64,000 nt of DNA, from contig NZ_CAJYVE010000034.1 of NCBI RefSeq assembly GCF_913777995.1, positions 1 to 64,000 of the forward strand. The letters are read 5' to 3'. Each line of letters opens with the position of its first letter. The stretch's first letter is position 1. This stretch comes from an uncultured Pseudomonas sp. Lineage in GTDB: Bacteria; Pseudomonadota; Gammaproteobacteria; Pseudomonadales; Pseudomonadaceae. Below are positions 4,641 through 45,416 of the stretch, one piece after another. Made by a program: the position numbers and the translations under genes. Under the pieces are notes generated by a model that saw only the letters and a list, made by a program, of their open reading frames with translations, was not told where the DNA came from and made no database searches.

Positions 4641-6365
4641 TTATGTCCGCTCCGTCTTGCTCAACCACATATCGCGCATCGAGCCGTCCTTGATCTGCAT
4701 CGGGTAGACGTGCTCGCTCACATCGACCTGGATGTCGACGAAGACCAGGCGATCCTTCATGGCGAAGACTTCTTCCAGCTTCGGCTTCAGGTCCTTGAGG
4801 TCGGTGATGCGCACACCAACGTGACCATAGGCTTCGACCAGCTTGACGAAGTCAGGCAGCGACTCCACGTAGGAGTGCGAGTGACGGCCGCCGTAGCTCA
4901 TGTCCTGCCACTGACGGACCATGCCGAGCACGCCGTTGTTGAGCAGGATGATCTTCACCGGCAGGTCGTACTGCAGGCAGGTGGACAGCTCCTGGATGTT
5001 CATCTGGATACTGCCTTCACCGGTCACGCACGCCACATCGGCATCTGGGAAGTTCAGCTTGATGCCCATGGCTGCCGGGAAACCGAAGCCCATGGTGCCC
5101 AGGCCACCGGAGTTGATCCAGCGGTTCGGCTTGTCAAAGCGGTAGTACTGCGCGGCGAACATCTGGTGCTGGCCGACGTCCGAGGTGATGTAGGCATCGC
5201 CCTTGGTCACTTCGTGCAGGGTCTCGATGACCTTCTGCGGCTTGATCACGCTGCCATCGCCACGGTCGTACGGGAACAGGTCGCCACTGGCGCGCCATTC
5301 GTCGATCTGCTTCCACCAGGCGGCGACCGCTTCCTTGTCGGGAGCCTGGCCGATTTCCTTGAAGGTCGCGACCATGTCGGTCAGCACGCTCTCCACCGGT
5401 CCCACGATCGGCACGTCGGCCTTGATGGTCTTGGAGATCGACGCCGGGTCGATGTCGATGTGGATGATCTTGGCGTTCGGGCAGAACTTGGCAGCGCCGT
5501 TGATGACCCGGTCATCGAAGCGCGCGCCCACCGCGAGGATCACGTCGGTGTGGTGCATGGCGACGTTGGCGGTGTAGCTGCCGTGCATGCCCAGCATGCC
5601 GATGAACTGGCGATCGGTACCCGGGTAGCCACCCAGGCCCATCAACGTGTTGGTCACCGGTGCGTTGAGCAGGCGAGCCAGCTCGGTCAGCGCAGCGGCA
5701 CCATTGCCCATGACCACGCCACCACCGGAGTAGATGACCGGACGCTTGGCAGCCAGCAGCATCTCCACGGCCTTGCGGATCTGGCCGGAGTGGCCGCGGA
5801 CCGCCGGGCTGTAGGAGCGCAGCTTGATCTTTTTCGGGTAGACGTATTCGAACTTCTCGGCCGGGTTGGTCATGTCCTTGGGCAGGTCGACCACCACCGG
5901 GCCGGGACGGCCGGATTGTGCGAGATAGAAGGCTTTCTTCAGGACTTCTGGAATCTCCGTCGGGTGCTTGATCATGAAGCTGTGCTTCACGATCGGACGG
6001 GAGATACCGATCATGTCGGTTTCCTGGAAGGCATCGGTACCGACCAGGGTGCTGGGCACCTGGCCAGAGATGACCACCATGGGGATCGAGTCCATGTAGG
6101 CAGTGGCGATACCGGTGATGGCGTTGGTTGCACCTGGGCCGGAAGTCACCAGCACCACGCCGGCCTTGCCGGTCGCACGGGCATAGCCATCGGCCATGTG
6201 GGTAGCGGCCTGCTCGTGGCGGACCAGGATATGACTGACCTCGGGTTCCTTGAACAGCGCATCGTATACGTGCAGGAGCGCGCCGCCCGGGTAGCCATAG
6301 ATGTGCTTAACGCCTTCGTCACGCAGGAAGCGGACGACCATTTCAGCGCCAGATAAAAGCTCCAC
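4641..6365 (-). CDS. ilvI: Acetolactate synthase large (catalytic) subunit
   Basis: Thiamine-diphosphate-, FAD- and Mg-dependent enzyme condensing pyruvate with pyruvate or 2-ketobutyrate, the first common step of valine, leucine and isoleucine synthesis. The 574 residues include the N-terminal TPP half (YGYPGG, GPGATN), a central FAD domain, and the C-terminal TPP/Mg motif [12 protein letters not shown] ending in LLNN. Two in-frame GTG codons are possible. The one at 6365 is preferred because AGAGG lies 8 nt upstream and it gives the family N-terminus [11 protein letters not shown]. Confidence 0.95.
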
Positions 6366-6763
6366 GTTGTTCACCTCTAAAACGCCAGAATACCGTCCAT
6401 GGGCGGACGGGTCTTAATAGGTTTACTGCCTAGCAGAGCATGAGCGACGGTGGTCGCCGACTACGTCAGCACTGACTGAGCAAGTATTGGGATGTCCCTG
6501 AGTGTTGCGGAACGGTCCCACCCAGCGCGAGGTAACGCGTTGCGGGTGTTACAGGTCGACGCGGATGTGCGCCTCATGATCTACCGAGACGGTCTGCTTC
6601 TGGCAGTCCCCCTACAGCGAACTTTGAATTGTTGTGATTCGCCCCCTGCAAGTCAAGTCATCCGTAAGCTTTCTTCCATGATTCCCATGAAAACCGCCAG
6701 TCACGGACGTCATGCGGCCGATGTGATAGCGTGCGCCACTGACGAGCACTTCAAGGAAGCACG
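6366..6763. other. Divergent intergenic region between ilvI and the DUF4124 gene
   Basis: About 400 bp with no supported gene. On the ilvI side there is a small stem (CCGTCC/GGACGG, about 6395-6411) close to the start codon. A weak -35-like TTGACT with a poor -10 lies near 6620-6655 on the minus strand. I looked for a branched-chain-amino-acid leader peptide and found none: the only short frame lacks clustered Ile/Leu/Val codons. Confidence 0.4.
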
Positions 6764-7201
6764 ATGCGCGCAATGATCGTTTCAGCGGTGTTGTTATGGC
6801 TGGCCACGGGCGCCAGCGTACAGGCGGCGCAGATCTACAAATGGGTCGACGCCCAGGGCGTGACCCACTACGACGCGACACCACCGGCCGGCGCCCCCGC
6901 CGAGCAGGTCGACCTGCAGGCATCACCGCCACCCAGCAGCGGCAGCAGCGCGCCGCGCAATACGGAGCCCGACCCGGCAGCGCAGCAGCGCGCCATCGAC
7001 GCCAAGGTCAAGAAGCAGGCCGCCGTAGAAGAAAAGAAGCGCCAAGCCAACTGCGAAATCATCCGCACCAACCTGGCCAAGCTGAAGACCTACTCGCGCA
7101 TTCGCGAGCCGGTGGAAGACGGATACAAACGCCTGACCCAGGAAGAGCGTCAGGCGCGCATCGATGAAACCGAAAAGATGATTGCCGAGTACTGCAACTG
7201 A
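6764..7201 (+). CDS. DUF4124 domain protein, exported
   Basis: A 145-residue protein with a signal peptide (about residues 1-21, ending VQA) followed by the DUF4124 motif IYKWVDAQGVTHYDATPP. A proline/serine-rich linker and a charged Lys/Glu-rich C-terminal half with helical potential follow. Proteins of this type are predicted periplasmic or envelope-associated, and their function is unknown. AAGGA lies just upstream of the ATG. Its stop codon lies in a hairpin shared with the convergent yqcC-like gene. Confidence 0.8.
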   Translation: MRAMIVSAVLLWLATGASVQAAQIYKWVDAQGVTHYDATPPAGAPAEQVDLQASPPPSSGSSAPRNTEPDPAAQQRAIDAKVKKQAAVEEKKRQANCEIIRTNLAKLKTYSRIREPVEDGYKRLTQEERQARIDETEKMIAEYCN

Positions 7202-7222
7202 GGGAAACCGCGTTTCCCTCAG
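7198..7222. terminator. Bidirectional hairpin spanning both convergent stop codons
   Basis: A perfect 11-bp stem (CTGAGGGAAAC paired with GTTTCCCTCAG) with a 3-nt loop. One arm contains the TGA stop of the upstream plus-strand gene and the other contains the stop of the downstream minus-strand gene. There is no U-tract on either side, so it may block convergent transcripts or stabilise 3' ends rather than act as a classic terminator. Confidence 0.6.
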
Positions 7223-7548
7223 CCGGCCTTACCGATCAACTGGTCGAAACGGCTGAGCGACGCCAGCAGGTTGCGCACCTGCTCGGGACGCTCGACGTAG
7301 ACCATCTCTGCCATCTCGCGAATGCCGGACACACTGGGCAACGGCAGCGACTGCTCGACGATGGCCTTCATGCGCGGCAGGAAAATCCACTGCAGCCACT
7401 GCTCGAACGACAGGGTGTCGACGCAGAACGGCTGCTGGCTGGCCAGCGCCTGCGGTGCCGGTGCACTGCTTTCCCACCAGCCCAGCTCACGCAGGGCCTG
7501 TTCGATCGACAGCAACTGGTCAGCCAGTGCAGGAACTCGCTTGTCCAT
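7219..7548 (-). CDS. YqcC family protein
   Basis: A small soluble protein of 109 residues with the YqcC-family layout: an N-terminal helix (LADQLLSIEQALRELGWW) followed by the FCVDTLSFEQWLQWIFLPRM core. Members often sit beside truC-type genes in enterobacteria, and their biochemical role is unknown. The ATG overlaps the stop codon of the upstream lipoprotein gene by one base (TGATG), which implies coupling. A GTG one codon earlier is possible but less likely. Confidence 0.8.
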   Translation of the reverse strand: MDKRVPALADQLLSIEQALRELGWWESSAPAPQALASQQPFCVDTLSFEQWLQWIFLPRMKAIVEQSLPLPSVSGIREMAEMVYVERPEQVRNLLASLSRFDQLIGKAG

Positions 7549-8319: not shown

Positions 8320-10644
8320 TTAATTCAACCATCCCTTGACCCAGTCCATCACGGACTCGGCCGGGGCGGGGCCGCTGCCGCAGCTGGGGCCTGGCACCGG
8401 TTCGCTGCCGCGAATATACGGCATCTGCACGGCATTCGGGCAACTCGCATCGGAGCCCTGCCCGGTGGCGGCATCCACCCAGGCCTGCACCACGTTGTCG
8501 GGCATGGCCATGTCCAGCGGCAAAGGATCGGCCTTGCGCATGAAGCTGGTCCAGACCTGCAGCGCGCCGGTGGCACCGGTGAACGGTGTCTTGCCGTTGT
8601 CGTCACGGCCCATCCACACCACCGCCAGAGTGTCCTGGCTGAAGCCGGCGAACCAGCTGTCACGCGAGTCGTTACTGGTACCGGTCTTGCCCGCCAGGTT
8701 CAGCGAGCTGGGCAGTACGTTGTAGACCGATTTGCCGGTGCCTTCGCGCATCACCCGCTGCATGGCGTTCTGCACCAGATAGATGGCGCCCGGATCGAAG
8801 CGCTGCTGAATCTGGAACGGATAGCGCTTGAGCGGCTCGCCCTCGGCGGTCAGCACGCTGCGGATACCGCGCATCGGCGTATTGAAGCCGCCGCTGGCGA
8901 TGGTCTGGTACATGGTGGCCACTTCCATCGGGCTGAGGCCACCGGCGCCCAGCAACATCGAAGGATAGACCGGCCACTCGCGGTTCACGCCCAACTTGTT
9001 GAGTGTCTTGAATACGGCCGGCACGCCGACTTCCAGGCCCAGCTTGGCCGTGGACAGGTTGTAGGAATGCGCCAGCCCCTGGTACAGGAAAATATTGCCA
9101 TGGGCCTTGCGATCGTAGTTCTGCGGTTTCCAGACCTGCCCATCGGCCCCTTTGACCTGGAACGGCTCGTCGGCCACCCAACTGGTGAGGGTGTACTTGT
9201 TGGGCTGCTCCAGAGCGGTCAGGTAGATCGCCGGCTTGACCAGCGAGCCGATCGGCCGTACTGCATCGATGGCGCGGTTGAACCCGGCGAAACCGGCCTG
9301 ACGGCTGCCCAGCAGGGCCTGCACCTCGCCGGTCTCGGGGTTGGTGACCACCATGGCCGCCTCGACCTCATCGGCCCCCTTGCGTCCGGTGAACTTCTTG
9401 AAGGTCTCGTCCATCGCCGCCTGGGACTTCATTTGCAGGATCGGATCGAAACTGGTGAAGATCCGCAGCCCCTCCTCGGTCAAGTCCTCGTCGCGGTAAT
9501 CCTCACGCAACTGGCGCTTGACCAGATCGAGGAACGCCGGGAACGAGCTGTCTGCCAGGCTGCCGGTGCGGGTCACGCCCAGCGGCATCTGCTTGGCAGC
9601 GGCCACCGCCTCGGCAGAAGCCACACCTTGCTGTTCCAGCAGGTCGAGCACCAGGTTGCGGCGCTCCAGCGCACGCTCCGGGTTACGTCGCGGGTTGTAA
9701 TAGGAAGGCCCCTTGACCATGCCGATCAGCAAGGCCACCTGATGCAGCTTCAACTCCGACAGCGGCTGACTGAAGAAATACTGGCTGGCCAGGCCGAAGC
9801 CGTGCACTGCACGCTGGCCATCCTGACCGACGAACACTTCGTTCAGGTAGGCCTCGAGGATTTCCTGCTTGCTGTAATGCAGCTCCAGCAGCACCGACAT
9901 CATCGCCTCGGTGAGCTTGCGCGACAGGCTGCGCTCGTTGGTCAGGTAGAAGTTCTTGACCAACTGCTGGGTCAGCGTACTGCCGCCCTGGCGCATATGC
10001 CCGGCCGTGGCGTTCACCCAGATGGCGCGGGCGATGGACTTGGGCGAAACACCGAAGTGGCTGTAGAAGTCGCGGTCCTCGACAGCCACCAGACCGTCGA
10101 GCAGGTAGGGCGGCGCCTGATCGAGCTTGATCAGGATGCGGTCTTCGAGATTCTTGGGGTACAGGCCGCCGATCAACAGCGGCTCCATGCGTGCCACGGC
10201 AAGCTTGTCACCCTTGGCCGAGGTCAGGTCGGCCACCGAATCTCCGGCAAAGCGCACCCGGATCTGCTGCGCCGGGTCGGTGCCTTCATAGAACTGGAAC
10301 CCACGAGTGTTGAGGTCCACGGTATTGCCGTTCACCGCAGCAGCCCCCGGTCCGTTGGCCACGCTTTCACGGCGATAGCCCAGGGCGTCGAGTTCGAGCA
10401 GGAAGTCATCACGGCTCAGTTTCTGGCCGACGAACAGTTCCAGCGGACGGGCATAGACCTTGGCAGGAATCGTCCAGCGCTTGCCGGAGAATTTCTCCTG
10501 CACCACGGCGTCGAGGTAGACCGCGAAGCCGGCGAGGATCACCAGGCCGACGATACCGAGTTTCAGCCCCCACCCCAGTATGGTCCGCAGACGGCTGGAA
10601 GGTGGGCGTTTCTTGGGAGTACGGGAAGAGCGGGATCGAGTCAT
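8320..10644 (-). CDS. mrcB: Penicillin-binding protein 1B (bifunctional transglycosylase/transpeptidase)
   Basis: Class A PBP that polymerises lipid II and cross-links peptidoglycan, 774 residues. Short basic cytoplasmic tail, one membrane helix at about 24-44, a UB2H-like segment, then the GT51 glycosyltransferase with catalytic EDRDFYSHFG near residue 188. The transpeptidase domain has SLVK (about 466), the SYN motif and KTGTS (about 652). All catalytic motifs are intact. A TPR lipoprotein and a YqcC protein follow. The ATG start gives the usual Lys/Arg-rich N-terminus. Confidence 0.95.
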   Translation of the reverse strand: MTRSRSSRTPKKRPPSSRLRTILGWGLKLGIVGLVILAGFAVYLDAVVQEKFSGKRWTIPAKVYARPLELFVGQKLSRDDFLLELDALGYRRESVANGPGAAAVNGNTVDLNTRGFQFYEGTDPAQQIRVRFAGDSVADLTSAKGDKLAVARMEPLLIGGLYPKNLEDRILIKLDQAPPYLLDGLVAVEDRDFYSHFGVSPKSIARAIWVNATAGHMRQGGSTLTQQLVKNFYLTNERSLSRKLTEAMMSVLLELHYSKQEILEAYLNEVFVGQDGQRAVHGFGLASQYFFSQPLSELKLHQVALLIGMVKGPSYYNPRRNPERALERRNLVLDLLEQQGVASAEAVAAAKQMPLGVTRTGSLADSSFPAFLDLVKRQLREDYRDEDLTEEGLRIFTSFDPILQMKSQAAMDETFKKFTGRKGADEVEAAMVVTNPETGEVQALLGSRQAGFAGFNRAIDAVRPIGSLVKPAIYLTALEQPNKYTLTSWVADEPFQVKGADGQVWKPQNYDRKAHGNIFLYQGLAHSYNLSTAKLGLEVGVPAVFKTLNKLGVNREWPVYPSMLLGAGGLSPMEVATMYQTIASGGFNTPMRGIRSVLTAEGEPLKRYPFQIQQRFDPGAIYLVQNAMQRVMREGTGKSVYNVLPSSLNLAGKTGTSNDSRDSWFAGFSQDTLAVVWMGRDDNGKTPFTGATGALQVWTSFMRKADPLPLDMAMPDNVVQAWVDAATGQGSDASCPNAVQMPYIRGSEPVPGPSCGSGPAPAESVMDWVKGWLN

Positions 10645-12869: not shown

Positions 12870-12897
12870 TTGACATAGAAATGAGAATCGTTATGAT
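12870..12897 (+). promoter_or_regulatory. Promoter of the PrrF-type sRNA
   Basis: -35 TTGACA (12870-12875), 16-bp spacer, -10 TATGAT (12892-12897). It overlaps a Fur operator, so Fur-Fe(II) binding would occlude RNA polymerase. The start site should be near 12904. Confidence 0.85.
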
Positions 12898-12901
12898 TAT
12901 C
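12883..12901 (+). promoter_or_regulatory. Fur box
   Basis: GAGAATCGTTATGATTATC matches 14 of 19 positions of the canonical Fur box and covers the -10 element of the promoter. This predicts iron-repressed expression of the sRNA that follows. Confidence 0.88.
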
Positions 12902-12903
12902 GC

Positions 12904-13017
12904 ATCCGGTCGCGAGACTGGTCGGTAACCTGAAAGACCTTGGTTCGGACTCTCAGATTATCTCCTCATCAGGCTAATCACGGTTTTTGACCCGGCATTT
13001 TTGCCGGGTCTTTTTTT
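12904..13017 (+). ncRNA. prrF: PrrF-family iron-responsive small RNA
   Basis: About 114 nt from the predicted start to the end of a strong terminator. The central segment, including ATTATCTCCTCATCAGGCTA, matches the conserved antisense core of Pseudomonas PrrF RNAs, which pair with mRNAs such as sodB under iron starvation. Promoter, Fur box and terminator are all in place. It lies between a pentapeptide gene and deoC and does not code for protein. Only one copy is seen here; Pseudomonas of this group usually carry a second PrrF elsewhere. Confidence 0.87.
12989..13017 (+). terminator. Rho-independent terminator of prrF
   Basis: Stem GACCCGGC (12989-12996) with GCCGGGTC (13003-13010), loop ATTTTT, followed by seven T. 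The convergent deoC stop codon lies 5 bp away. On the opposite strand the A/T content around the stem is too low for a good deoC terminator. Confidence 0.93.
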
Positions 13018-13021
13018 GCCT

Positions 13022-22484: not shown

Positions 22485-22845
22485 TACAAGAAAAACAAAA
22501 AACACGTGTCACCCCCACAACAAGAACAAGATGAAACGACTCACGCATAACAAGAACAACACGGCGGAGGCGCAGCTAACTGATTCTTTTGGAGAGGTGT
22601 TGTATTTGGGGCTTGCCCCGCGACCAGGCCGAGAACAACAAAAAACTACCCCAAGGTAGCGCCTGAACTGGTTGGATCACCGATCATCGCAATACAGCGT
22701 CCAAAGCAATCCGTTTGCTCTTCACTCTCGATTTGAGAGGTTTCGCAGGCAAAGACCGGCGAACGGGCACTCAACAAAAACAAGAAGCCCGAAACGACAA
22801 TAAAAATAAAGAGCACACACTTTGGGGGAGCTTCGGCTCCCCTAG
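22485..22845 (+). ncRNA. crcZ: CrcZ small RNA, Hfq/Crc sequester
   Basis: About 360 nt, the usual size of CrcZ in this group. It holds six A-rich CA motifs, at about 22488-22502, 22517-22530, 22549-22560, 22634-22645, 22772-22787 and 22798-22811. These bind Hfq/Crc and so relieve catabolite repression. Position after cbrB, the sigma-54 promoter and the upstream GTAACA repeats all agree. A hairpin GGGGAGC-TTCG-GCTCCCC (22825-22842) marks the probable 3' end, although no U-tract follows it. The exact ends are estimated. Confidence 0.9.
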
Positions 22846-23056
22846 TAGCTTCTGCCACCCGGCAACCCCCGCCCGCCAGGCTTCTGCAAGCCCGCCGTTC
22901 TGGGCACAGAGCCCCCGCACAGCCCCATCTCCAGACCTGCCCAGCATCGCCGATCGACGGCTTCCTACACCATTGCCCGATCAAATGCTAGAATCCCCGC
23001 CCATCGTGCGGCCATTCTCCATTTTTGGTCGAATATTCCTTCAAACAGTGCATCCC

Positions 23057-37731: not shown

Positions 37732-37838
37732 TCGCTTGCCGCGTGGCCGATGTATGGCGGGTTTCGCAAGGATCTGTATCTACCGGCAGCCTGTCGCCAC
37801 AGGTAGGTTGCCGGCTGGATCATCCGAACGAGCGCGCC

Positions 37839-38168
37839 ATGCACATCCACGACATTCCCTTCGGCATCACCGACTGGTCGGCCATCGAGGCCACAACCCA
37901 TCCCGGAGAGACCGGCATCGCCTACTGGCGCACCTGCCAGTTCGGCGCCATCCGCGTGCGCATGGTGGAATACACGCCGGGCTACCTGGCCGACCACTGG
38001 TGCAGCAAAGGCCACGTGCTGCTGTGCCTGAAGGGCCAACTGGACACCGAGCTGGAAGACGGCCGTCGCTTCACCCTGCTGCCCGGCATGAGCTACCAGG
38101 TGGCCGACAACGCCGAGGCGCATCGTTCCTCCACGGCAAGTGGCGCGACGCTGTTCATCGTCGATTGA
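37839..38168 (+). CDS. DHCW-motif cupin-fold protein
   Basis: A small protein of 109 residues, MHIHDIPFGITDWS, with the family motif DHWCSKGH and a beta-rich cupin pattern (GHVLLCLKGQLDTELEDGRRFTLLPGMSYQVAD). Histidines and a cysteine could bind a metal. The function is unknown. An upstream in-frame start exists, but 37839 matches the family. The stop codon directly abuts that of the convergent kinase gene. Confidence 0.82.
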   Translation: MHIHDIPFGITDWSAIEATTHPGETGIAYWRTCQFGAIRVRMVEYTPGYLADHWCSKGHVLLCLKGQLDTELEDGRRFTLLPGMSYQVADNAEAHRSSTASGATLFIVD

Positions 38169-39785
38169 CTACGTGGCCTCTTTGAAAAAATCCTTGGTCA
38201 ATTCGAGCAGGGTCGCTCGCAATTCGGGCGGACGCACAGGCTTGGACAGAATGGAAATGTTCATATGCATCAGGCCACTGCGGATGCGCTCGATGTCATG
38301 TCCGGTCATGATCATCGCCGGAACCTCCCAGCCGCGCCGCTCGCGTATCGCGGCGATGCACTCGGCGCCCGAGATCTTCGGCCCCAGATCGAAATCGGCA
38401 ATGATGATGTCGCAGTCGGTCACCACGTCCAGTCCATCGCTGTGGGTTTCCACCTCGCACCCCCACTTTTCGAGCAGGGCCGAGGTTGCCATCAGCACAT
38501 TGGCATCGTCTTCCACCAGGCATACGCGCAGGCCCTGCAAGCGCCGCTGCATGATCACCGGCCGTTGGGCCTCGATGCCAGGCACCATGCGCTCCAGGCC
38601 CTGGATGGTCGCGCAAGTACCCCGACCGGGTCGCGAGTCCAGGCGGATATCCAGGCCAATCAACTGGCTGATTCGCTTGACGATGGACAACCCCAGCCCC
38701 AGGCCTTCGACATCCTTGTCACGGACGTGGCGTACCCGGTAGAACTCCTTGAACACCTCCGGCAGATGCTCGGCGGCAATGCCGCGCCCCTTGTCGTAGA
38801 TAACAATGGCCAGCCCTTTGCCCCGGGGTCGAACACCTATCAGCACCGGTTGTCCGGCGGCGTACTTGAGCGTATTGGAGACCAGGTTCTGCACCATGGT
38901 GGTCAACAAGCCGGCATTGACGTTGACCCACTGTCGACACGGACGCAGGCGTAACTCGACCCCCGCCCAGCGTGCCGCCTCGGTGTTCTGCTTGACCACA
39001 TCACGCAGAAGCGCATCGAGGTTGACGGGCTCCGCCTGTGGCTCCAGCTTGCCGTTGTCGAGGGTGTAGATGTCGAGGATCGAACGGAACAGCTGCGAGA
39101 CGGTGTGCAGCGAGCGGTCAATGTTGTCCACCAGGCGAAGCTCTTCGCTGCCCAGCCTGGCGTCGCGCAGGCAGGCCGTAAACAGGCCAATGGAATGGAT
39201 CGGCTGGCGCAGGTCGTGGCTGGCCTGGGCAAGAAAGCGGGACTTCTCCTGATTCGCGGCCATTGCCTCTTCCGACGCGACACGGGTTCGTTCGAGCAGA
39301 ATGTGCGCATAGGCCGGTACCACGATGGTGGTCACGATCAGCATCAGGAACATGAAAGGCTGGCCACGCCAGAACGGGGTCAGGATAAAGATCATCACCA
39401 GCATGCCCAGCGCGATGAGTGTCGCGGCGGCCAGGTAGCGAGAACCAAAGCGCATGCCATTGCCCAGGGTGACCCACAGCAAGGCGGCATACACGGGCAA
39501 GGCGCCCTCCCCACCCACGACCATGGCAAACGAGATACCGCTGTAGTCGTGGGCCATGGCGAACAGGCGGCGCCAGAAGAAATGCCCAGGCCAACGCTTG
39601 ATCGCCATGCGCAGGGGCACCGCCACGCTGACGAAAAACGCCATGTACCACAGGATGGGCGCATAAGTGGCGAAGTCACTGGAAGGCAGGCAAGCCACCA
39701 CGAAGATGTACAGCGAAGCACAGGTGCTGACCGTCAGCCTTAAGGTGGCTTGGTCAAGCTCGCTGTTCTTTTCCATCAGGGGCAT
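38169..39785 (-). CDS. Hybrid histidine kinase with RpfC-like five-helix sensor (copy 1)
   Basis: 538 residues. Five membrane helices (about residues 15-165) include the WVTLGNGMRFG segment typical of RpfC-type sensors of diffusible fatty-acid signals. Then come HisKA with the phospho-His near residue 190 (QASHDLRQP), HATPase_c (NLVSNTLKYA, GLGLGLSIV) and a C-terminal receiver (phospho-Asp in IIADFDLG, Lys in SKPVRP). There is no Hpt domain. GGAG precedes ATG 39785. It is divergent from its likely partner regulator at 39880. P. aeruginosa PA1396/PA1397 is a similar described pair. The ligand here is inferred only. Confidence 0.87.
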   Translation of the reverse strand: MPLMEKNSELDQATLRLTVSTCASLYIFVVACLPSSDFATYAPILWYMAFFVSVAVPLRMAIKRWPGHFFWRRLFAMAHDYSGISFAMVVGGEGALPVYAALLWVTLGNGMRFGSRYLAAATLIALGMLVMIFILTPFWRGQPFMFLMLIVTTIVVPAYAHILLERTRVASEEAMAANQEKSRFLAQASHDLRQPIHSIGLFTACLRDARLGSEELRLVDNIDRSLHTVSQLFRSILDIYTLDNGKLEPQAEPVNLDALLRDVVKQNTEAARWAGVELRLRPCRQWVNVNAGLLTTMVQNLVSNTLKYAAGQPVLIGVRPRGKGLAIVIYDKGRGIAAEHLPEVFKEFYRVRHVRDKDVEGLGLGLSIVKRISQLIGLDIRLDSRPGRGTCATIQGLERMVPGIEAQRPVIMQRRLQGLRVCLVEDDANVLMATSALLEKWGCEVETHSDGLDVVTDCDIIIADFDLGPKISGAECIAAIRERRGWEVPAMIMTGHDIERIRSGLMHMNISILSKPVRPPELRATLLELTKDFFKEAT

Positions 39786-39879
39786 GGCAAGTCTCCGAGG
39801 CACAAGCCGCTTCAAATCTGAAACCGGATGTTACAGTTGCGGTACGATACGCCCACCCTGCGGTGAATTGGCCTTGAGC

Positions 39880-40518
39880 ATGACGCACAGAATCATAGTG
39901 GCAGATGACCACCCTCTGTTTCGCGAAGGGATGCTCAAGACCCTGGAGCGGCTCATACCCAACGCGCTGATCGAGCAGGCGGGCAACCTGGATGAAGTCC
40001 TGGCACTCGCGCGTTCGGGCCCGGAAGTCGATTCGCTGATTCTGGATCTGCGCTTTCCCGGGCTCACCTCCATGCAGGTCATTGGTCAGTTGCGCAGCGA
40101 GTTCAAACGCACATCGATCATCGTCGTCTCGATGGTCGACGACCCGGAGATCATCTCGCAGGTCATCGACCAGGGAGCTGACGGCTTCATCGGCAAGAAT
40201 GTCGACCCGACGGGTATTGCCGACGCCATTCAGGCCATCCGGGAAGGCGAGGTGGTGGTCAAGTACAACCCTGAAAATCCGCTGTTGGACCCTAGCCTCT
40301 CATCACTGACTGCGCGTCAGAAGCAAGTGCTGAGCCTGGTTGCCGCTGGCAAGACCAACAAGGAAATCGCCAAGCTGCTGGGTATTTCGCCCTTTACCGT
40401 ACGCATCCATGTTTCCACGCTGCTCAAGTCCCTGGGGGTCCCCACGCGTGCGGCCGCGGCGGCGCAGTTCGGGATTTTTCCCAGCGGCAATGGCTGGCCG
40501 GAAAAAACCGATACCTGA
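39880..40518 (+). CDS. NarL/LuxR-type response regulator (partner 1)
   Basis: 212 residues: receiver (acidic pair D9/D10, phospho-Asp D56 in LILDLRFPG, S84, K106) and a LuxR-type HTH (LTARQKQVLSLVAAGKTNKEIAKLLGISPFTVRIHVSTLL). All phosphorylation residues are present. It lies head-to-head with kinase copy 1 across about 95 bp. Its recognition helix is almost identical to that of the second regulator at 43549-44169, so both may bind the same sites. Confidence 0.9.
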   Translation: MTHRIIVADDHPLFREGMLKTLERLIPNALIEQAGNLDEVLALARSGPEVDSLILDLRFPGLTSMQVIGQLRSEFKRTSIIVVSMVDDPEIISQVIDQGADGFIGKNVDPTGIADAIQAIREGEVVVKYNPENPLLDPSLSSLTARQKQVLSLVAAGKTNKEIAKLLGISPFTVRIHVSTLLKSLGVPTRAAAAAQFGIFPSGNGWPEKTDT

Positions 40519-40569
40519 AACTTACCTGCGCTGACAGTCGATGACGCCGCAAAGACCTGGCAGCGAGGG

Positions 40570-40977
40570 TTACAGCGTGGGCTTGGGCACCGGCGTGCTC
40601 GCGGGAATCAACTTGGCTCCCGAGGGTCGTTTCGGGCAGTCGCCGGACGAATACCAACGGGTAACCATCCCCCGCTCGATCATGAAGCGCTGTTCACAAC
40701 GGGCGTAGTCAGGCACATAACCCCACTCTGCCGAACGACTGGCGTTGGTCAGCCAGACATAGTCGTAGCCGATGATCTTCGAATACCCATCGCTCAAGGC
40801 ATAGCTGTTCTTTGGCGCGCCCCATGAAGTCACCAGGTCATCCTCTGAGGCGCCTACCCATGAGGCGGTGATGTCCGATGTGGTCTGGTAACGCTGGTTC
40901 GTGAGCAGATTACCCAAGGGCGAACCGGCGCACCCAGACAACAACAGGACGGGGAAAAGGACGACCCAGGGCTTCAT
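40570..40977 (-). CDS. Small lipoprotein, unknown function (left accessory gene)
   Basis: 135 residues. Signal peptide MKPWVVLFPVLLLSGC with lipobox LSGC (Cys16), Ala at +2, so probable outer-membrane sorting. The mature part has SWVGASEDDLVTSWGAPKNSYALSDG, a pattern like the BamE/SmpA-type DDLVxxxGxP helix-turn, and ends with three prolines. It is convergent with regulator 1 and divergent from the lipoprotein at 41328 across a region carrying one copy of the 18-bp dyad. Confidence 0.75.
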   Translation of the reverse strand: MKPWVVLFPVLLLSGCAGSPLGNLLTNQRYQTTSDITASWVGASEDDLVTSWGAPKNSYALSDGYSKIIGYDYVWLTNASRSAEWGYVPDYARCEQRFMIERGMVTRWYSSGDCPKRPSGAKLIPASTPVPKPTL

Positions 40978-41327
40978 GCTACAACTCCAATCATTATTAA
41001 ATATTAAAATGCCACCACCACAACTCGACAACTTATCGAACCCGGGAGGCAATGCTTAGTTATCACGCCATGCTAGAAAGCCCTTAAATGACCGTCCATA
41101 GCACACCTGTACTATGGCGCCCCTCCCTGTACCGCTCATAAACTCACAACGGTCCGAACACGCTGTTTTATCCAGCTCGCGCAGTAACCCGGCGCCTGTT
41201 CATTACTTCAGTGAACAGGCACACGCGTGGCTGTTGCCGGCGATAAACATACAGCGCTCATCTCGAAGGCCTGCTGCCTGAATGCGGGCCAATAACAACG
41301 CCCCTGAATACACATCAAGGTAAGTCT
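40978..41327. other. Divergent regulatory region between the two lipoprotein genes
   Basis: 350 bp without a gene. It contains one copy of the cassette dyad (41098-41115) and a -10-like CATAAA at 41137-41142. The dyad is centred near -42 relative to the start site that hexamer implies. There is also a 9-bp inverted repeat GCCTGTTCA/TGAACAGGC (41194-41220) that would fold in the leader of the rightward transcript. GTAAG lies just before the 41328 start. Confidence 0.55.
41098..41115 (+). promoter_or_regulatory. 18-bp dyad, cassette operator copy A
   Basis: ATAGCACACCTGTACTAT, extended to CCATAG...CTATGG (41096-41117). It is almost perfectly palindromic and shares its core with the three copies at 44241-44354. 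It lies 121 bp before the leftward lipoprotein start and about 210 bp before the rightward one. Confidence 0.65.
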
Positions 41328-41816
41328 ATGCACGTCAATCATGGAAAAATACTCGGCATCGGATTCATGCTGTGCTGGCTGGCCGTCGGTTTGTCGGGCT
41401 GCGCCAATACGGACGGCTTGATGAATTCATTGAATCCAGGTGCACAAAAGTACGAGATCACTTATTTGAAGAAAACCCTGATTCCGGGAAAAACCACCAA
41501 GAATCAGGTGATGCAACTGTTCGGCGCGCCCTCCCAAGAAGAACTTAACTCGACCAGTCGCAGTAACGGTTCCAATTGGACTTATGAGAAAAAAGAAGAA
41601 GGGCTGGAGAAATACATGACTCTGGCGCACAAGTATGTGTCGACCGAGACGAGCCTGAAGATGTACGACGCCTCCGCGCAGGTGTCCAAGGCACAGGGTG
41701 TCGCCGAGGACGTCAGCAGCGTGACGGGAACGAAAAAAGCACCGAACCAGGCCACCGGGTCGACGCTGATCATTTACTTCATCGACGATGTGGTGGACTA
41801 CTACCGGCTGTATTGA
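41328..41816 (+). CDS. BamE/SmpA-like small lipoprotein (right accessory gene)
   Basis: 162 residues. Signal peptide with lipobox LSGC (Cys25), Ala at +2. The mature region has the BamE/OmlA-like pattern LIPGKTTKNQVMQLFGAPS near its start and ends in TLIIYFIDDVVDYYRLY. A Ser/Asn-rich middle with a charged helix separates them. It is too long and divergent to be BamE itself. It is preceded by the dyad-containing region and followed by kinase copy 2 on the same strand. Confidence 0.78.
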   Translation: MHVNHGKILGIGFMLCWLAVGLSGCANTDGLMNSLNPGAQKYEITYLKKTLIPGKTTKNQVMQLFGAPSQEELNSTSRSNGSNWTYEKKEEGLEKYMTLAHKYVSTETSLKMYDASAQVSKAQGVAEDVSSVTGTKKAPNQATGSTLIIYFIDDVVDYYRLY

Positions 41817-41902
41817 TGCGCTCCCTCCCACCCGGCCGCCAGGGTCCCTAGAGCCCGGCGGCCAAAGTTCACTTGCCGCGCTCAAGGGAGCAACATCCGG
41901 CG

Positions 41903-43552
41903 ATGCCTCCCCATGACCCTGAGGTCGTAAGCGTGGAACAGAACAGCGAACTCAATCAGGCCAGCCTGCGACTGACCGTCAGTGCCAGCGCCTTGCTATA
42001 CATGGTGGTGCTGAGCGGTCTGCGCCCTGCTGATGCGGCGACGTACCTTCCCATCATTCTGTATATTTCGACCTTCATCATTGCCTCGATATTCCTGCGC
42101 ATGGCGATCAAGCGCTGGCCCGGGCATTTTTTCTGGCGCCGCCTGTTCTCCATGCTGCATGACTACACCGGCATCGCCTTCGCCATGGTGCTGGGCGGCG
42201 AAGGCGCGTTGCCCATCTACGCCGCCCTGCTGTGGGTGACGCTGGGCAATGGCATGCGTTTCGGCTCGCATTATCTGGCCCTGGCCACGGCGATCGCACT
42301 TGCCACCCTGGTGGTGATTTTCCTCTTCAACCCCTTCTGGCGCTCTCAGCCCTACCTGTTCCTGATGCTGATCGTGACCACCGTCGTGGTGCCGGCCTAC
42401 GCGCATATCCTGCTCAAACGCACACGTCTCGCCTCGGAAGAAGCCATCGCTGCCAACCAGGAGAAATCCCGTTTTCTCGCCCAGGCCAGCCACGACCTGC
42501 GCCAGCCGATCCATTCCATCGGCCTGTTCACGGCCTGCCTGCGCGACGCCAGGCTCGGCAGCGAGGAACTGCGTCTGGTGGATAACATCGACCGTTCGCT
42601 GCACACCGTCTCGCAGCTGTTCCGCTCGATCCTGGACATCTACACCCTCGACAACGGCAAGCTGGAACCACAGTCTGAACCGCTGAGTCTGGATGAGCTG
42701 TTGCGCGATGTGGTCAAGCAGAACACCGAAGCCGCACGCTGGGCAGGTGTCGAGATGCGCCTGCGTCCTTGCCAACACTGGGTCGATGCCAATGCCGGTC
42801 TATTGACCACCATGGTGCAGAACCTGGTGTCCAACGCGATCAAGTACGCCCCCGGCAAACCGGTATTGATCGGCGCCCGGCGCCAGGCCAACGGCCTGGC
42901 CGTGGTGGTTTATGACAAAGGCTGCGGCATCGCCGCCGAGCACCTGCCCGAGGTCTTCAAGGAGTTCTATCGAGTGCGCCGCACGCGCGACAAGGATGTC
43001 GAAGGGTTGGGTTTGGGGCTGTCCATCGTCAAGCGGATCAGCCAGTTGCTCGATGTGAACGTGCATATCCGCTCCACGCCCGAGCGGGGTACCCGGGTGG
43101 CCATCACGGGATTGAAGCAGGTCGCTGCCCAGCCGCTGGCCCCGCGCGTCAAGAGCCCGCAAGAACGCCTCCATGGTCTACGCATATGCCTGATCGAAGA
43201 CGATGCCAACGTTTCCATGGCGACCAAGGCCCTGCTGGAGAAATGGGGTTGCGTGGTCGAAGTCCACACGGATGCGGATATCCTGGACGCCGACTGCGAC
43301 ATCATCATTGCCGACTTCGACCTGGGCACCAAAGCCTCGGGGGCCGAATGCATCGCGACGATCCGTGAGCGACGCGGCCGGGAAGTACCTGCCCTGGTGA
43401 TTACCGGACACGAGATCGAACGTATTCGCCAATCGCTGCACAGCCTGAACATTTCGGTGCTGGCCAAGCCCGTGCGTCCACCTGAATTGCGCAGTGTGTT
43501 GCTCGAGCAGGCCAAATCCATCGAACGCAGCCGGTTTTCGTACGAGGTCTAA
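41903..43552 (+). CDS. Hybrid histidine kinase with RpfC-like five-helix sensor (copy 2)
   Basis: 549 residues, with the same plan as the kinase at 38169-39785: five helices with WVTLGNGMRFG, HisKA (phospho-His near residue 197), HATPase_c, then a receiver (IIADFDLG, AKPVRP). A 71-residue stretch around the phospho-His (42461-42673) is identical to copy 1 in protein sequence. Sensor, linker and receiver differ more. GGGAG lies upstream of ATG 41903. A GTG a few codons later is possible. The stop overlaps that of the convergent regulator 2 by four bases. Confidence 0.87.
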   Translation: MPPHDPEVVSVEQNSELNQASLRLTVSASALLYMVVLSGLRPADAATYLPIILYISTFIIASIFLRMAIKRWPGHFFWRRLFSMLHDYTGIAFAMVLGGEGALPIYAALLWVTLGNGMRFGSHYLALATAIALATLVVIFLFNPFWRSQPYLFLMLIVTTVVVPAYAHILLKRTRLASEEAIAANQEKSRFLAQASHDLRQPIHSIGLFTACLRDARLGSEELRLVDNIDRSLHTVSQLFRSILDIYTLDNGKLEPQSEPLSLDELLRDVVKQNTEAARWAGVEMRLRPCQHWVDANAGLLTTMVQNLVSNAIKYAPGKPVLIGARRQANGLAVVVYDKGCGIAAEHLPEVFKEFYRVRRTRDKDVEGLGLGLSIVKRISQLLDVNVHIRSTPERGTRVAITGLKQVAAQPLAPRVKSPQERLHGLRICLIEDDANVSMATKALLEKWGCVVEVHTDADILDADCDIIIADFDLGTKASGAECIATIRERRGREVPALVITGHEIERIRQSLHSLNISVLAKPVRPPELRSVLLEQAKSIERSRFSYEV

Positions 43553-44169
43553 CAGGCGTCGCGGTCCGCAAAACGCACTGCGGCGACTGCGCGGTTGGGC
43601 ACATTCAAGGCGCGAATCAACGAGGAGACATGAATACGCACGGTGTAGGGAGAAATGGCCAGTTCGGCGGCAATTTCCTTGTTGGTCTTTCCTTGTGCGA
43701 TCAGTTGCCAGACTTCTCGCTGCCTTGACGTCAGCTTGCGAGGAACTTCATCGCTTTCGAGCAGCGGTGTATCACTCGGCTCATAGCACGCCACTACTTG
43801 GCCACTATTTATATCCCTGATCGCTTTACGCACGTCTTTAGGCGCCATGTTCTTGCCAATGAATCCATTGACGCCCGTTTCCATCACTCGTGCGACCACC
43901 AGGCTATCATCAACGGCAGAAACAACAATAATTCGGGTAGCGCCTTTTTCCTGACACAGTTTTTCCAGCCCTTTAAGAGAGCATAGCCCTGGCAGACGCA
44001 CTTCGATAAACAACAGAGCGACTGGCTTCCAGCCGGCCATAAGTGTGTAGACATCCTCCAGTGTTCCCGCCTGCCTTATTTCTGCGCCCGGCAACAGGCA
44101 TTCCAATAGCCCTATCATTCCTTCCCGATAGAGCGGGTGCTCATCCGCCACCACAATTCGACAACTCAT
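43549..44169 (-). CDS. NarL/LuxR-type response regulator with Glu in place of the phospho-Asp (partner 2)
   Basis: 206 residues, aligning without gaps to regulator 1 through the receiver. Position 56 is Glu (LLFIEVRLPG, codon GAA) instead of Asp, and the acidic pair is D9/E10. S84 and K106 are kept. The LuxR HTH (LTSRQREVWQLIAQGKTNKEIAAELAISPYTVRIHVSSLI) looks functional. Asp-to-Glu changes can mimic phosphorylation, so this protein may be active without its kinase. The start MSCRIVV is chosen by homology. Two dyads lie 72-103 bp upstream. Confidence 0.86.
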   Translation of the reverse strand: MSCRIVVADEHPLYREGMIGLLECLLPGAEIRQAGTLEDVYTLMAGWKPVALLFIEVRLPGLCSLKGLEKLCQEKGATRIIVVSAVDDSLVVARVMETGVNGFIGKNMAPKDVRKAIRDINSGQVVACYEPSDTPLLESDEVPRKLTSRQREVWQLIAQGKTNKEIAAELAISPYTVRIHVSSLIRALNVPNRAVAAVRFADRDAC

Positions 44170-44240
44170 ATCAGCAAGTACAGCCTGTTCAGATCGATGA
44201 GAACACGGCTCGATCATCTCTGACCCAGGCGACTTAAGAT

Positions 44241-44272
44241 ATAGAACACATGAACTAGTACACCTGCACTAT
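44241..44272 (+). promoter_or_regulatory. Two overlapping 18-bp dyads, cassette operator copies B and C
   Basis: Copy B ATAGAACACATGAACTAG (44241-44258) and copy C CTAGTACACCTGCACTAT (44255-44272) share four bases, with centres 14 bp apart. They lie upstream of regulator 2 (start 44169, leftward) and about 180-210 bp before the OmpA-type gene. Confidence 0.6.
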
Positions 44273-44336
44273 ACCTTTCGATATCAGCCATGCAGGGTGA
44301 ATAGGCTGACCCTGTTGCAACATCACGAACCCTGCA

Positions 44337-44354
44337 ATAGGGCAGTTGTACTAT
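44337..44354 (+). promoter_or_regulatory. 18-bp dyad, cassette operator copy D
   Basis: ATAGGGCAGTTGTACTAT, with arms extended to GCAATAG/CTATTGC (44334-44357). A -10-like TATAAC at 44380-44385 places its centre about 46 bp upstream of a likely start for the OmpA-type gene, where no good -35 is seen. That is the usual site for a class II activator. Confidence 0.62.
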
Positions 44355-44450
44355 TGCGGGGTTTCATTCTCGCCGGTTTTATAACCGCCACCGCCGACCT
44401 GTTATTCAGCGGGTCATGCATGACGTCTTGCAGCCGAGAGTTTCGGAACG

Positions 44451-45416
44451 ATGAACTTTAAAAAAACCACTGTAGTGATACCCATACTTTCCATTGTGCT
44501 GGGCTTGGCGGTGCTGTCCTCGCCTGGCGCGCAGGCAACCAACAATCGAGCATTCGAGGCCGCCAGCCTGCCGGTATCGACCACCCCCTTGGGGGCATTT
44601 CCCTACCTTGCGCTTCCCAAGGGCTATGTCGTGGCGACCACGCCTGATACCTCGGACTTCGATCAGATTCCCTTCTGGACAGGCGACCGCCTGGAGGCTG
44701 TCGAAGGCAAAGTCTGGTCGGCGCATATCGACGCCGCACAGGGCAAGGCATTCTCTGACCTCGAACTGCAGCGCAACCTCGAATCCGTGGTGTTCTCGCT
44801 GGGCGGTAAGAAGATCTTCGACGGCAAAATCCCGGAAGAGGCCAGCCAACGCATCAAGGAATGGCCACGCGACTTCGCGATGAAATACAACAGCGGCCTG
44901 GGCGATATCTGGAACAACGCGACGCAGGTGTTCGTCATCCACCGTACCGACCGCGACATCTGGATACACCTGTGCAGCTACGCCTTTGGCGCCGGGATGC
45001 TGATCGCCGAAAGCAAACCATTGCAAATCACCGCCAGCCTGTTATCGGCACAGGAACTCGGCACGCAGCTGGAGCAATCGGGCAAGGCGGTATTGCACGT
45101 CAATTTCGCCAGTGACCAGAGCCGCATCCTGCCTGATTCGCAAGCACAACTGCAGCAAGTCGTGCAGTTACTCAGGCAAGACTCAGTGTTGAAACTGGCA
45201 GTGAACGGCTATACCGACGACACCGGCGACGCTGCGCATAACAAGACGCTTTCAGCCCAACGCGCAGAGGCCGTGGTAGCTGCCATCGTCGCCCAGGGGA
45301 TCGACGCGACCCGCTTATCGGCCACCGGCTTTGGCGAAAGCGCTCCAGTGGCCGATAACGCCAGCGAAGCGGGTAAAGCGCAAAACCGTCGGGTCGAGCT
45401 GGTCAGGCAAGACTAA
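44451..45416 (+). CDS. OmpA-domain envelope protein with novel N-terminal region
   Basis: 321 residues. Signal peptide about 1-29 (AQA), an N-terminal region of about 190 residues that I cannot assign to a family (it includes KGYVVATTPDTSDFDQIPFWTGDRLEAVEGKVWS), and a C-terminal OmpA/MotB peptidoglycan-binding domain (LHVNFASDQSRILPDS; NGYTDDTGD; LSAQRAEAVVAAI; NRRVEL). It is probably periplasmic and tied to the cell wall. It lies beyond the dyad-bearing region and probably belongs to the two-kinase cassette. Confidence 0.8.
   Translation: MNFKKTTVVIPILSIVLGLAVLSSPGAQATNNRAFEAASLPVSTTPLGAFPYLALPKGYVVATTPDTSDFDQIPFWTGDRLEAVEGKVWSAHIDAAQGKAFSDLELQRNLESVVFSLGGKKIFDGKIPEEASQRIKEWPRDFAMKYNSGLGDIWNNATQVFVIHRTDRDIWIHLCSYAFGAGMLIAESKPLQITASLLSAQELGTQLEQSGKAVLHVNFASDQSRILPDSQAQLQQVVQLLRQDSVLKLAVNGYTDDTGDAAHNKTLSAQRAEAVVAAIVAQGIDATRLSATGFGESAPVADNASEAGKAQNRRVELVRQD

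Follow-up and report, generated by a model that had tools for sequence, protein, structure and literature searches.

Closest described systems and gene content of the cassette

Among the systems that have been described, the closest to the locus treated here include PA1396/PA1397 of Pseudomonas aeruginosa, for which the available text of PMC6536496 leaves open how the pair acts, and the RpfC/RpfG/RpfF system, whose rpfG-rpfC/rpfF layout is given in the available part of PMC4504480. A cassette of seven genes that resembles both in part occupies positions 38,169 to 45,416 of a 64,000-nucleotide stretch of DNA (the window) from an uncultured Pseudomonas sp. (positions 1 to 64,000 of contig NZ_CAJYVE010000034.1, NCBI RefSeq assembly GCF_913777995.1). 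Judged from sequence comparisons, it is fairly probable that a palindrome in the intergenic regions of this cassette is the operator of PA1397-type regulators, that the local envelope lipoproteins are their direct output, and that the cassette is an expanded module of the PA1396/PA1397 type.

All seven genes named in a preliminary description of the window (two hybrid kinases, two LuxR/NarL-type regulators, two lipoproteins and an OmpA-domain protein) are present and were correctly placed. K1 (38169..39785, reverse strand) is a PA1396-type hybrid histidine kinase with an RpfC-related membrane sensor, HisKA, HATPase and REC domains and no HPt domain (Pfam), and it is divergent from R1 (39880..40518, forward strand), a NarL/LuxR-type response regulator with REC and LuxR-type helix-turn-helix (HTH) domains and an intact phospho-acceptor aspartate, with 94 base pairs (bp) separating the start codons. 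K2 (41873..43552, forward strand), a second PA1396-type hybrid kinase with HisKA-HATPase-REC behind a membrane sensor, converges with a 4-bp overlap on the NarL/LuxR-type regulator R2 (43549..44169, reverse strand, with the frame open to 44217), so that both orientations are as originally claimed. The small lipoproteins Lp1 (40570..40977, reverse strand) and Lp2 (41328..41816, forward strand) each have the lipobox LSGC, read from the sequence; Lp1 has no Pfam family and the match of Lp2 to BamE (E = 0.079) is below the cut-off. The exported OmpA-domain protein (44451..45416, forward strand) has a C-terminal OmpA domain (Pfam, 1.4e-20) and, as read from the sequence, a signal-peptide-like start without a lipobox. 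The earliest possible start of K2 lies 56 nucleotides (nt) past the Lp2 stop, the real start perhaps slightly further, and Lp2 and K2 are probably co-transcribed.

The cassette shares with PA1396/PA1397, as represented by strain PA7, the HisKA-HATPase-REC kinase architecture without HPt, the register of the sensor, the divergent arrangement of K1 and R1 with a NarL-type partner that has the phospho-acceptor aspartate and the same recognition-helix motif, and a neighbouring lipoprotein gene. It differs in that K2 and R2 are convergent with glutamate at the R2 acceptor position, the window kinases belong to a sister paralogue clade, and a second kinase, an atypical regulator, a second lipoprotein and the OmpA protein are added. 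With RpfC/RpfG/RpfF it shares a homologous input domain, a single profile finding both, whereas the window kinases are without HPt, the partner is a DNA-binding LuxR-HTH protein and not an HD-GYP protein, and no adjacent signal-synthase gene was seen in flanks of which only the cupin and the substrate-binding-protein-like gene were domain-scanned and the rest read as open reading frames (ORFs).

A palindrome associated with PA1396-type loci

The palindrome has the consensus TAGCACA-N2-TGTGCTA, the two central bases varying among sites. Its 10-base core pattern TAGNNCANNTGNNCTA occurs four times in the window (41099, 44242, 44256 and 44338), always in one of the two intergenic regions of the cassette, and the consensus TAGCACANNTGTGCTA at up to three mismatches finds the same four window sites only; in the whole genome (4.76 Mb in 54 contigs), a looser pattern at up to one mismatch gave four additional single sites elsewhere. 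Of these putative operators, TAGCACACCTGTACTA (41099..41114) lies between Lp1 and Lp2, TAGAACACATGAACTA (44242..44257) and TAGTACACCTGCACTA (44256..44271) are the proximal and distal halves of a 14-bp-phased pair upstream of R2, and TAGGGCAGTTGTACTA (44338..44353) is upstream of the OmpA-domain gene.

Beyond the window, the consensus was present at up to one mismatch in 60 of 80 named PA1396-type loci (the best 80 of 370) and exactly in 38, while 60 scrambled palindromes of matching composition hit a mean of 0.05 loci and a maximum of one. The site was found in 58/80 Pseudomonas genomes with the sensor versus 3/80 without it (Fisher p = 4.5e-21, ignoring relatedness); the reversed-pattern control gave 15/80 and 8/80, respectively. 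A sensor gene lies within 5 kb of 45 of the 75 listed sites. On the side of the regulators, the motif TVRIHVS in the region of the recognition helix is present in 123 of 126 rows, and the remaining three, incomplete in the alignment, have TVRIHVS (two) or TVRVHVS (one). From the association, conservation and position of the palindrome we infer that R1 binds it.

The palindrome might instead be owned by another regulator that travels with these loci, the kinases controlling something else. Sites more than 5 kb from any detected sensor gene (30 of the 75 listed) and the lack of an upstream core at R1-type genes (0/115) would fit such an owner, but the near absence of sites from genomes without the sensor and the near-constant recognition-helix motif across the family make it quite improbable.

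Genes behind the palindrome and promoter geometry

The sites tend to precede lipoprotein genes. A lipobox ORF starts within 300 nt of 83/94 sites (76/87 without duplicate contexts) versus 406/3000 random positions, the ORFs counted including the kinase at one site (L051, 6281) and a few chance frames. The lipoproteins behind the sites belong to at least four families, namely Lp1, Lp2, a common family of 97-111 residues and a YecR-like one. The core lies within 400 nt upstream of 26/27 Lp2 homologues, the most distant of them at 29% identity, and several of the Lp2 homologues with the core are in stretches without a detected kinase (L066, L170 and L173). It is likewise upstream of 5/5 Lp1 homologues and of 7/7 R2 genes, each of them preceded by two sites with a spacing of exactly 14 bp. 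Because the palindrome stands upstream of nearly all Lp2 homologues, all Lp1 homologues and the OmpA gene of the window, the accessory genes look like targets, in line with the envelope targets that the preliminary description had proposed.

Lp1 and Lp2 gave no significant BLAST match to one another, and a profile comparison of four lipoprotein sets did not show a common fold or family (best probability 22%, for Lp1 and the PA7 lipoprotein, a pair with a short BLAST match at E = 4e-4 for a single comparison). The structure model of Lp2 had a predicted local distance difference test score (pLDDT) of 38, and a comparison of the model of the 97-111 residue lipoprotein (pLDDT 63) with solved structures gave no match at E ≤ 0.001.

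In 59 of 74 sequence windows, the best -10-like hexamer begins exactly 24 nt downstream of the palindrome; relative to the predicted promoters the palindrome then spans about -52 to -37, where a NarL-type activator would sit. The spacings within the cassette are 24 nt towards Lp2 (TAAACT, 41139..41144, forward strand), 23 nt towards Lp1 (TAGCAT, 41070..41075, reverse strand), 26 nt towards the OmpA-domain gene (TATAAC, 44380..44385, forward strand) and 23 nt towards R2. A similar geometry is given in the available text of PMC5715377 for CrbR/ErdR (ACTU motif), where the inverted repeat of a LuxR-type regulator covers -52 to -36 of a promoter that it activates, although the palindrome there is another one, the kinase sensor is an SLC5 transporter and the targets are acetate genes.

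In P. aeruginosa PA7, the divergent regulator and kinase genes are followed by a convergent lipoprotein gene, and a copy of the palindrome with two mismatches, TAGCACATAGGTACTA, lies 95 nt upstream of the lipoprotein start with TATAGT 23 nt beyond. It is the place of this weak site, before the lipoprotein gene, that makes it credible.

Sensor family of the kinases

K1 (538 residues) and K2 (up to 559 residues) are 74% identical over 530 amino acids, and the P. aeruginosa PA7 orthologue of PA1396 is 63% identical to K1 and 61% to K2 (58% and 55%, respectively, over the sensor region). With the residue positions of the PA1396 sensor as printed in the available part of PMC6536496 as the reference, 20/29 positions match in K1 and 18/29 in K2 without gaps, the best rows from other species reaching 27. 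This ungapped match suggests a five-helix input domain in both kinases, with which a hydropathy scan of the two sensors is consistent but nothing more. The N-terminal glutamate (E19 in RpfC, E8 in PA1396) is invariant in the sensor alignments.

A profile of the sensor matched 46 of 185 gammaproteobacterial genomes, and six of the matched neighbourhoods were fetched, one (L198) checked by Pfam and the other five by sequence patterns only. In L198 the order is an HD-GYP regulator, a sensor-GGDEF protein, a sensor kinase with Hpt and a convergent enoyl-CoA-hydratase-like gene, which is the rpfG-rpfC/rpfF layout as available from PMC4504480 except for the GGDEF domain on the middle protein. Since the profile recovers such a locus and the PA1396 positions match, the sensors of K1 and K2 are RpfC-related by test; together with the identity to the PA7 kinase, this bears out the RpfC-like sensors of the preliminary description. 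Fatty-acid sensing by K1 and K2 is suggested by family membership only.

An atypical second regulator and the history of the cassette

R1 is 49% identical to R2 and 60% to the regulator encoded next to the PA7 kinase. The phospho-acceptor aspartate is present in 119/119 R1-type rows (109 distinct sequences). In R2 the acceptor is glutamate in five of seven sequences (the window, L046, L047, L058 and L064) and aspartate in two (L060 and L061), and DE replaces DD in all seven. The regulator tree sets the seven R2 homologues apart in a separate clade (100/100) on long branches, for which the program warns of long-branch joins. With glutamate for the phospho-acceptor aspartate, R2 is therefore not a normal partner of K2. 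According to the available parts of PMC12548384 and PMC12632262, the combination of glutamate and DE is common among aspartate-less receivers, and CmrT of Clostridioides difficile is a co-regulated, apparently constitutive partner. The CmrRST system described in these sources thus also combines a normal regulator with a co-regulated one that has glutamate at the phosphorylation site; the regulators there are of the OmpR type and here of the NarL type, R2 has a double operator of its own, and the likeness is one of description.

By its sequence, R2 probably acts as a phosphorylation-independent regulator. Its direction of action is a separate matter, and R2 could be a phospho-blind competitor on the shared operator that damps R1. 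The same recognition-helix motif, the double operator and the lost phospho-acceptor aspartate would all suit a competitor, but glutamate can mimic the active state in many regulators (cases in which this was disproved are also noted in the available parts of PMC12632262 and PMC12548384), and a damping role appears rather unlikely, if worth keeping in mind.

The kinases have a history of their own. In a tree of 59 rows, a single clade of 29 (support 100/100) unites the K1 and K2 homologues and splits into a K2 group of 11 rows (95/78) and a K1 group of 18 rows with weak support (85/53), and the PA7 kinase sits in the sister clade of 23, K1 and K2 not being one-to-one orthologues of PA1396. Because both homologue sets share the clade of 29, K1 and K2 probably stem from one old kinase duplication. 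K1 and K2 homologues share a locus in further sampled genomes, so that the arrangement, put forward in the preliminary description as new, is not unique to this genome. Eight fetched loci (L048 and L051-L057) have R1, Lp2 and K2 with no R2 within the fetched stretch, and two (L060 and L061) have R2 without K2.

A simple inverted duplication of the kinase-regulator pair was rejected on the basis of the identity levels, the trees and the distribution of K2 and R2. The preliminary description had more broadly read the cassette as a rearranged duplication giving two independent kinase-regulator pairs and a two-input system. The presence of two kinases and two regulators within 7 kb speaks for such pairs, as does the placement of K1 and K2 as sister groups (the K1 group weakly supported); they are nonetheless very improbable, given that R1 and R2 are only 49% identical and fall in separate clades (long branches flagged), that K2 and R2 each occur without the other nearby, and that R2 is without the phospho-acceptor aspartate. 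A duplication is thus probable for the kinases and not supported for the pairs. A better reading of the cassette is a single two-component system accompanied by a second sensor, a probably phosphorylation-independent regulator and a shared operator.

The accessory genes co-occur with the kinases across genomes, as the preliminary description had implied. Lp2 (at least 60% identity) is present in 17 of the 20 genomes with a best sensor match of at least 68% versus one of the other 378, with weaker Lp2 relatives in 17 further genomes, and the N-terminal half of the OmpA protein was matched in 6 of 398 genomes, in one only partly.

Loci elsewhere in the family and neighbouring features

A number of related loci depart from the gene content of the window. 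K2 is reduced to broken fragments while Lp2 and the operator are kept in L058 (G285, 6351-7429) and L065 (G296, 8547-9136). An extra exported-looking protein, missing from the window, is encoded near the OmpA-domain gene in relatives (236 residues, L066, 5572-6282), and in L046 one lies between the OmpA-domain gene and R2 (about 4885 to 6006). In L147, L149, L154-L160, L162, L163, L165 and L167 the lipoprotein gene beside the kinase is kept, the palindrome having drifted past recognition or to variants such as TAGGGC or TAGGAC. One genome (G024; L168-L170, 2.26-2.29 and 2.90-2.92 Mb) has nine sites in two clusters away from the detected kinase locus, several of them before lipoproteins or exported proteins, which looks like an expanded regulon. 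A site also precedes an autotransporter-like frame of 1049-1070 residues near the kinase locus in L062 (10176), L063 (2003) and L064 (2501).

A second clade is formed by microcin-like loci, in which PA1396-type kinase and regulator genes are accompanied by one to three double-glycine-leader peptides per locus (L178 of G198, L180 of G319 and, in part, L176, L179 and L181). Variants of the palindrome precede the peptides, an HlyD-type adaptor, a FadL-type porin, an autotransporter-like protein (a reading of the sequence, for which Pfam gave no such match) and lipoproteins; most of these sites have two mismatches, with one mismatch before a 71-residue peptide (L176 and L179) and its 69-residue relative (L180). 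One of the double-glycine-leader peptides has weak Pfam matches to Microcin V (E = 0.0088) and class II bacteriocin (E = 0.011), and in L178 an ATP-binding cassette (ABC) exporter with a C39 peptidase and an outer-membrane efflux protein are encoded beside the kinase and regulator. A pattern search found no convincing microcin-like peptide near the window cassette, the sole match in the window (6773) being distant and likely a chance frame.

Around the cassette, a gene for a DHCW-motif cupin (37743-38168, NCBIfam NF038084) adjoins K1, and a similar cupin gene is near the kinase in L075 and L076. Rfam places CrcZ at 22486-22876 and PrrF at 12870-13018 of the window.

Proposed mechanism and its weighing

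In the mechanism proposed here, K1 would sense a membrane-partitioning ligand, which its family suggests to be probably fatty-acid-like. The K1 receiver and an HPt protein encoded elsewhere would control the phosphorylation of R1, an assumption based on the HPt step for PA1396 in the available text of PMC4504480. R1 would then bind TAGCACA-N2-TGTGCTA and, from the observed position at about -52 to -37, would activate by contacting RNA polymerase, with the envelope proteins Lp1, Lp2 and the OmpA-domain protein as the outputs. With K2 directly behind Lp2, the output unit would also make a second sensor, and this K2 may feed R1. R2, behind its conserved double operator and with the same recognition-helix motif, would be made when R1 fires and may sustain or modulate the response.

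Several points weigh against this account. The palindrome was first spotted by eye in the window, so that independent evidence, the kind that counts, comes only from other loci; these are related by descent, which inflates all palindrome counts, although the genes that follow the sites differ and so do the two central bases. No site at up to one mismatch was found in 20 of the 80 named loci, at 14 of which (PA7 included; several P. putida-like species) a lipobox ORF still stands in the same place. By the rule used, 11 of the 94 sites lack a lipobox ORF (six of these precede Lp2 genes missed by the pattern), the core is upstream of only 3/6 OmpA-protein homologues, the window gene included, and the -10-like box on the R2 side is weak. 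Taken by itself, the PA7 site does not reach significance: at up to three mismatches, 38 of 200 shuffles had one match or more. As for the signal, the available part of PMC6536496 names eight PA1396 residues in helices IV and V whose mutation lowers sensitivity to diffusible signal factor (DSF), of which five are identical and three conservatively changed in both K1 and K2. In the same source, as far as available, a simple model of direct pmr activation by PA1397 is said not to fit.

The nature of the signal allows for another account, in which envelope damage or membrane-active peptides, and not cis-2 fatty acids, are what the sensors detect, and the role of the lipoproteins and the OmpA protein is protective. 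Consistent with it, the recognisable outputs are mostly exported, the second-clade variants of the palindrome occur in a peptidase-ABC-exporter locus with microcin-like peptides, and PA1396 affects polymyxin tolerance (available text of PMC6536496). It appears unlikely nevertheless, in that the sensor is a homologue of those of RpfC and PA1396, for which binding of DSF or a response to it has been reported, and retains several of the key residues.

A wider proposal extends the operator reading to the family, and it is offered tentatively, as somewhat more apt to fail than to stand. The RpfC/PA1396-type systems of Pseudomonas would share one operator and, on a lipid-like signal from neighbours, would deploy exported proteins encoded nearby (lipoproteins, the OmpA-domain protein, the FadL-type porin, the autotransporter-like protein and, in a single clade, also microcin-like peptides and the exporter for these). 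In the window this would have become a self-amplifying circuit, its output operon making both a second sensor and a relative of the regulator that acts without phosphorylation.

Significance for the PA1396/PA1397 family

Within the literature searched on PA1395-PA1398 and DSF, as far as its text was available, no description of the palindrome or of a lipoprotein as a target was found, the 2021 study by DNA affinity purification sequencing (DAP-seq) excepted, and PA1395-PA1397 are not mentioned in the available main text of PMC13086498. That DAP-seq study, of 55 Pseudomonas regulators (Trouillon 2021), is cited in the available part of PMC12051241, which also quotes the public data set GSE179001; because its set may contain PA1397 sites, the motif cannot yet be called new in P. 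aeruginosa. With the same exception, the operator and the lipoprotein targets are what is added here to the known system of the PA1396/PA1397 type.

For that family, a conserved palindrome at an activator position before neighbouring lipoprotein genes provides a concrete candidate for a direct target and a ready reporter promoter, and together with the lipoproteins it points attention to the envelope. R2, with glutamate for aspartate and under a shared operator, may offer a clean case in which to ask whether a two-component system amplifies itself through a phosphorylation-independent regulator. Confirmation of the microcin-like loci would link this sensor family with bacterial competition.

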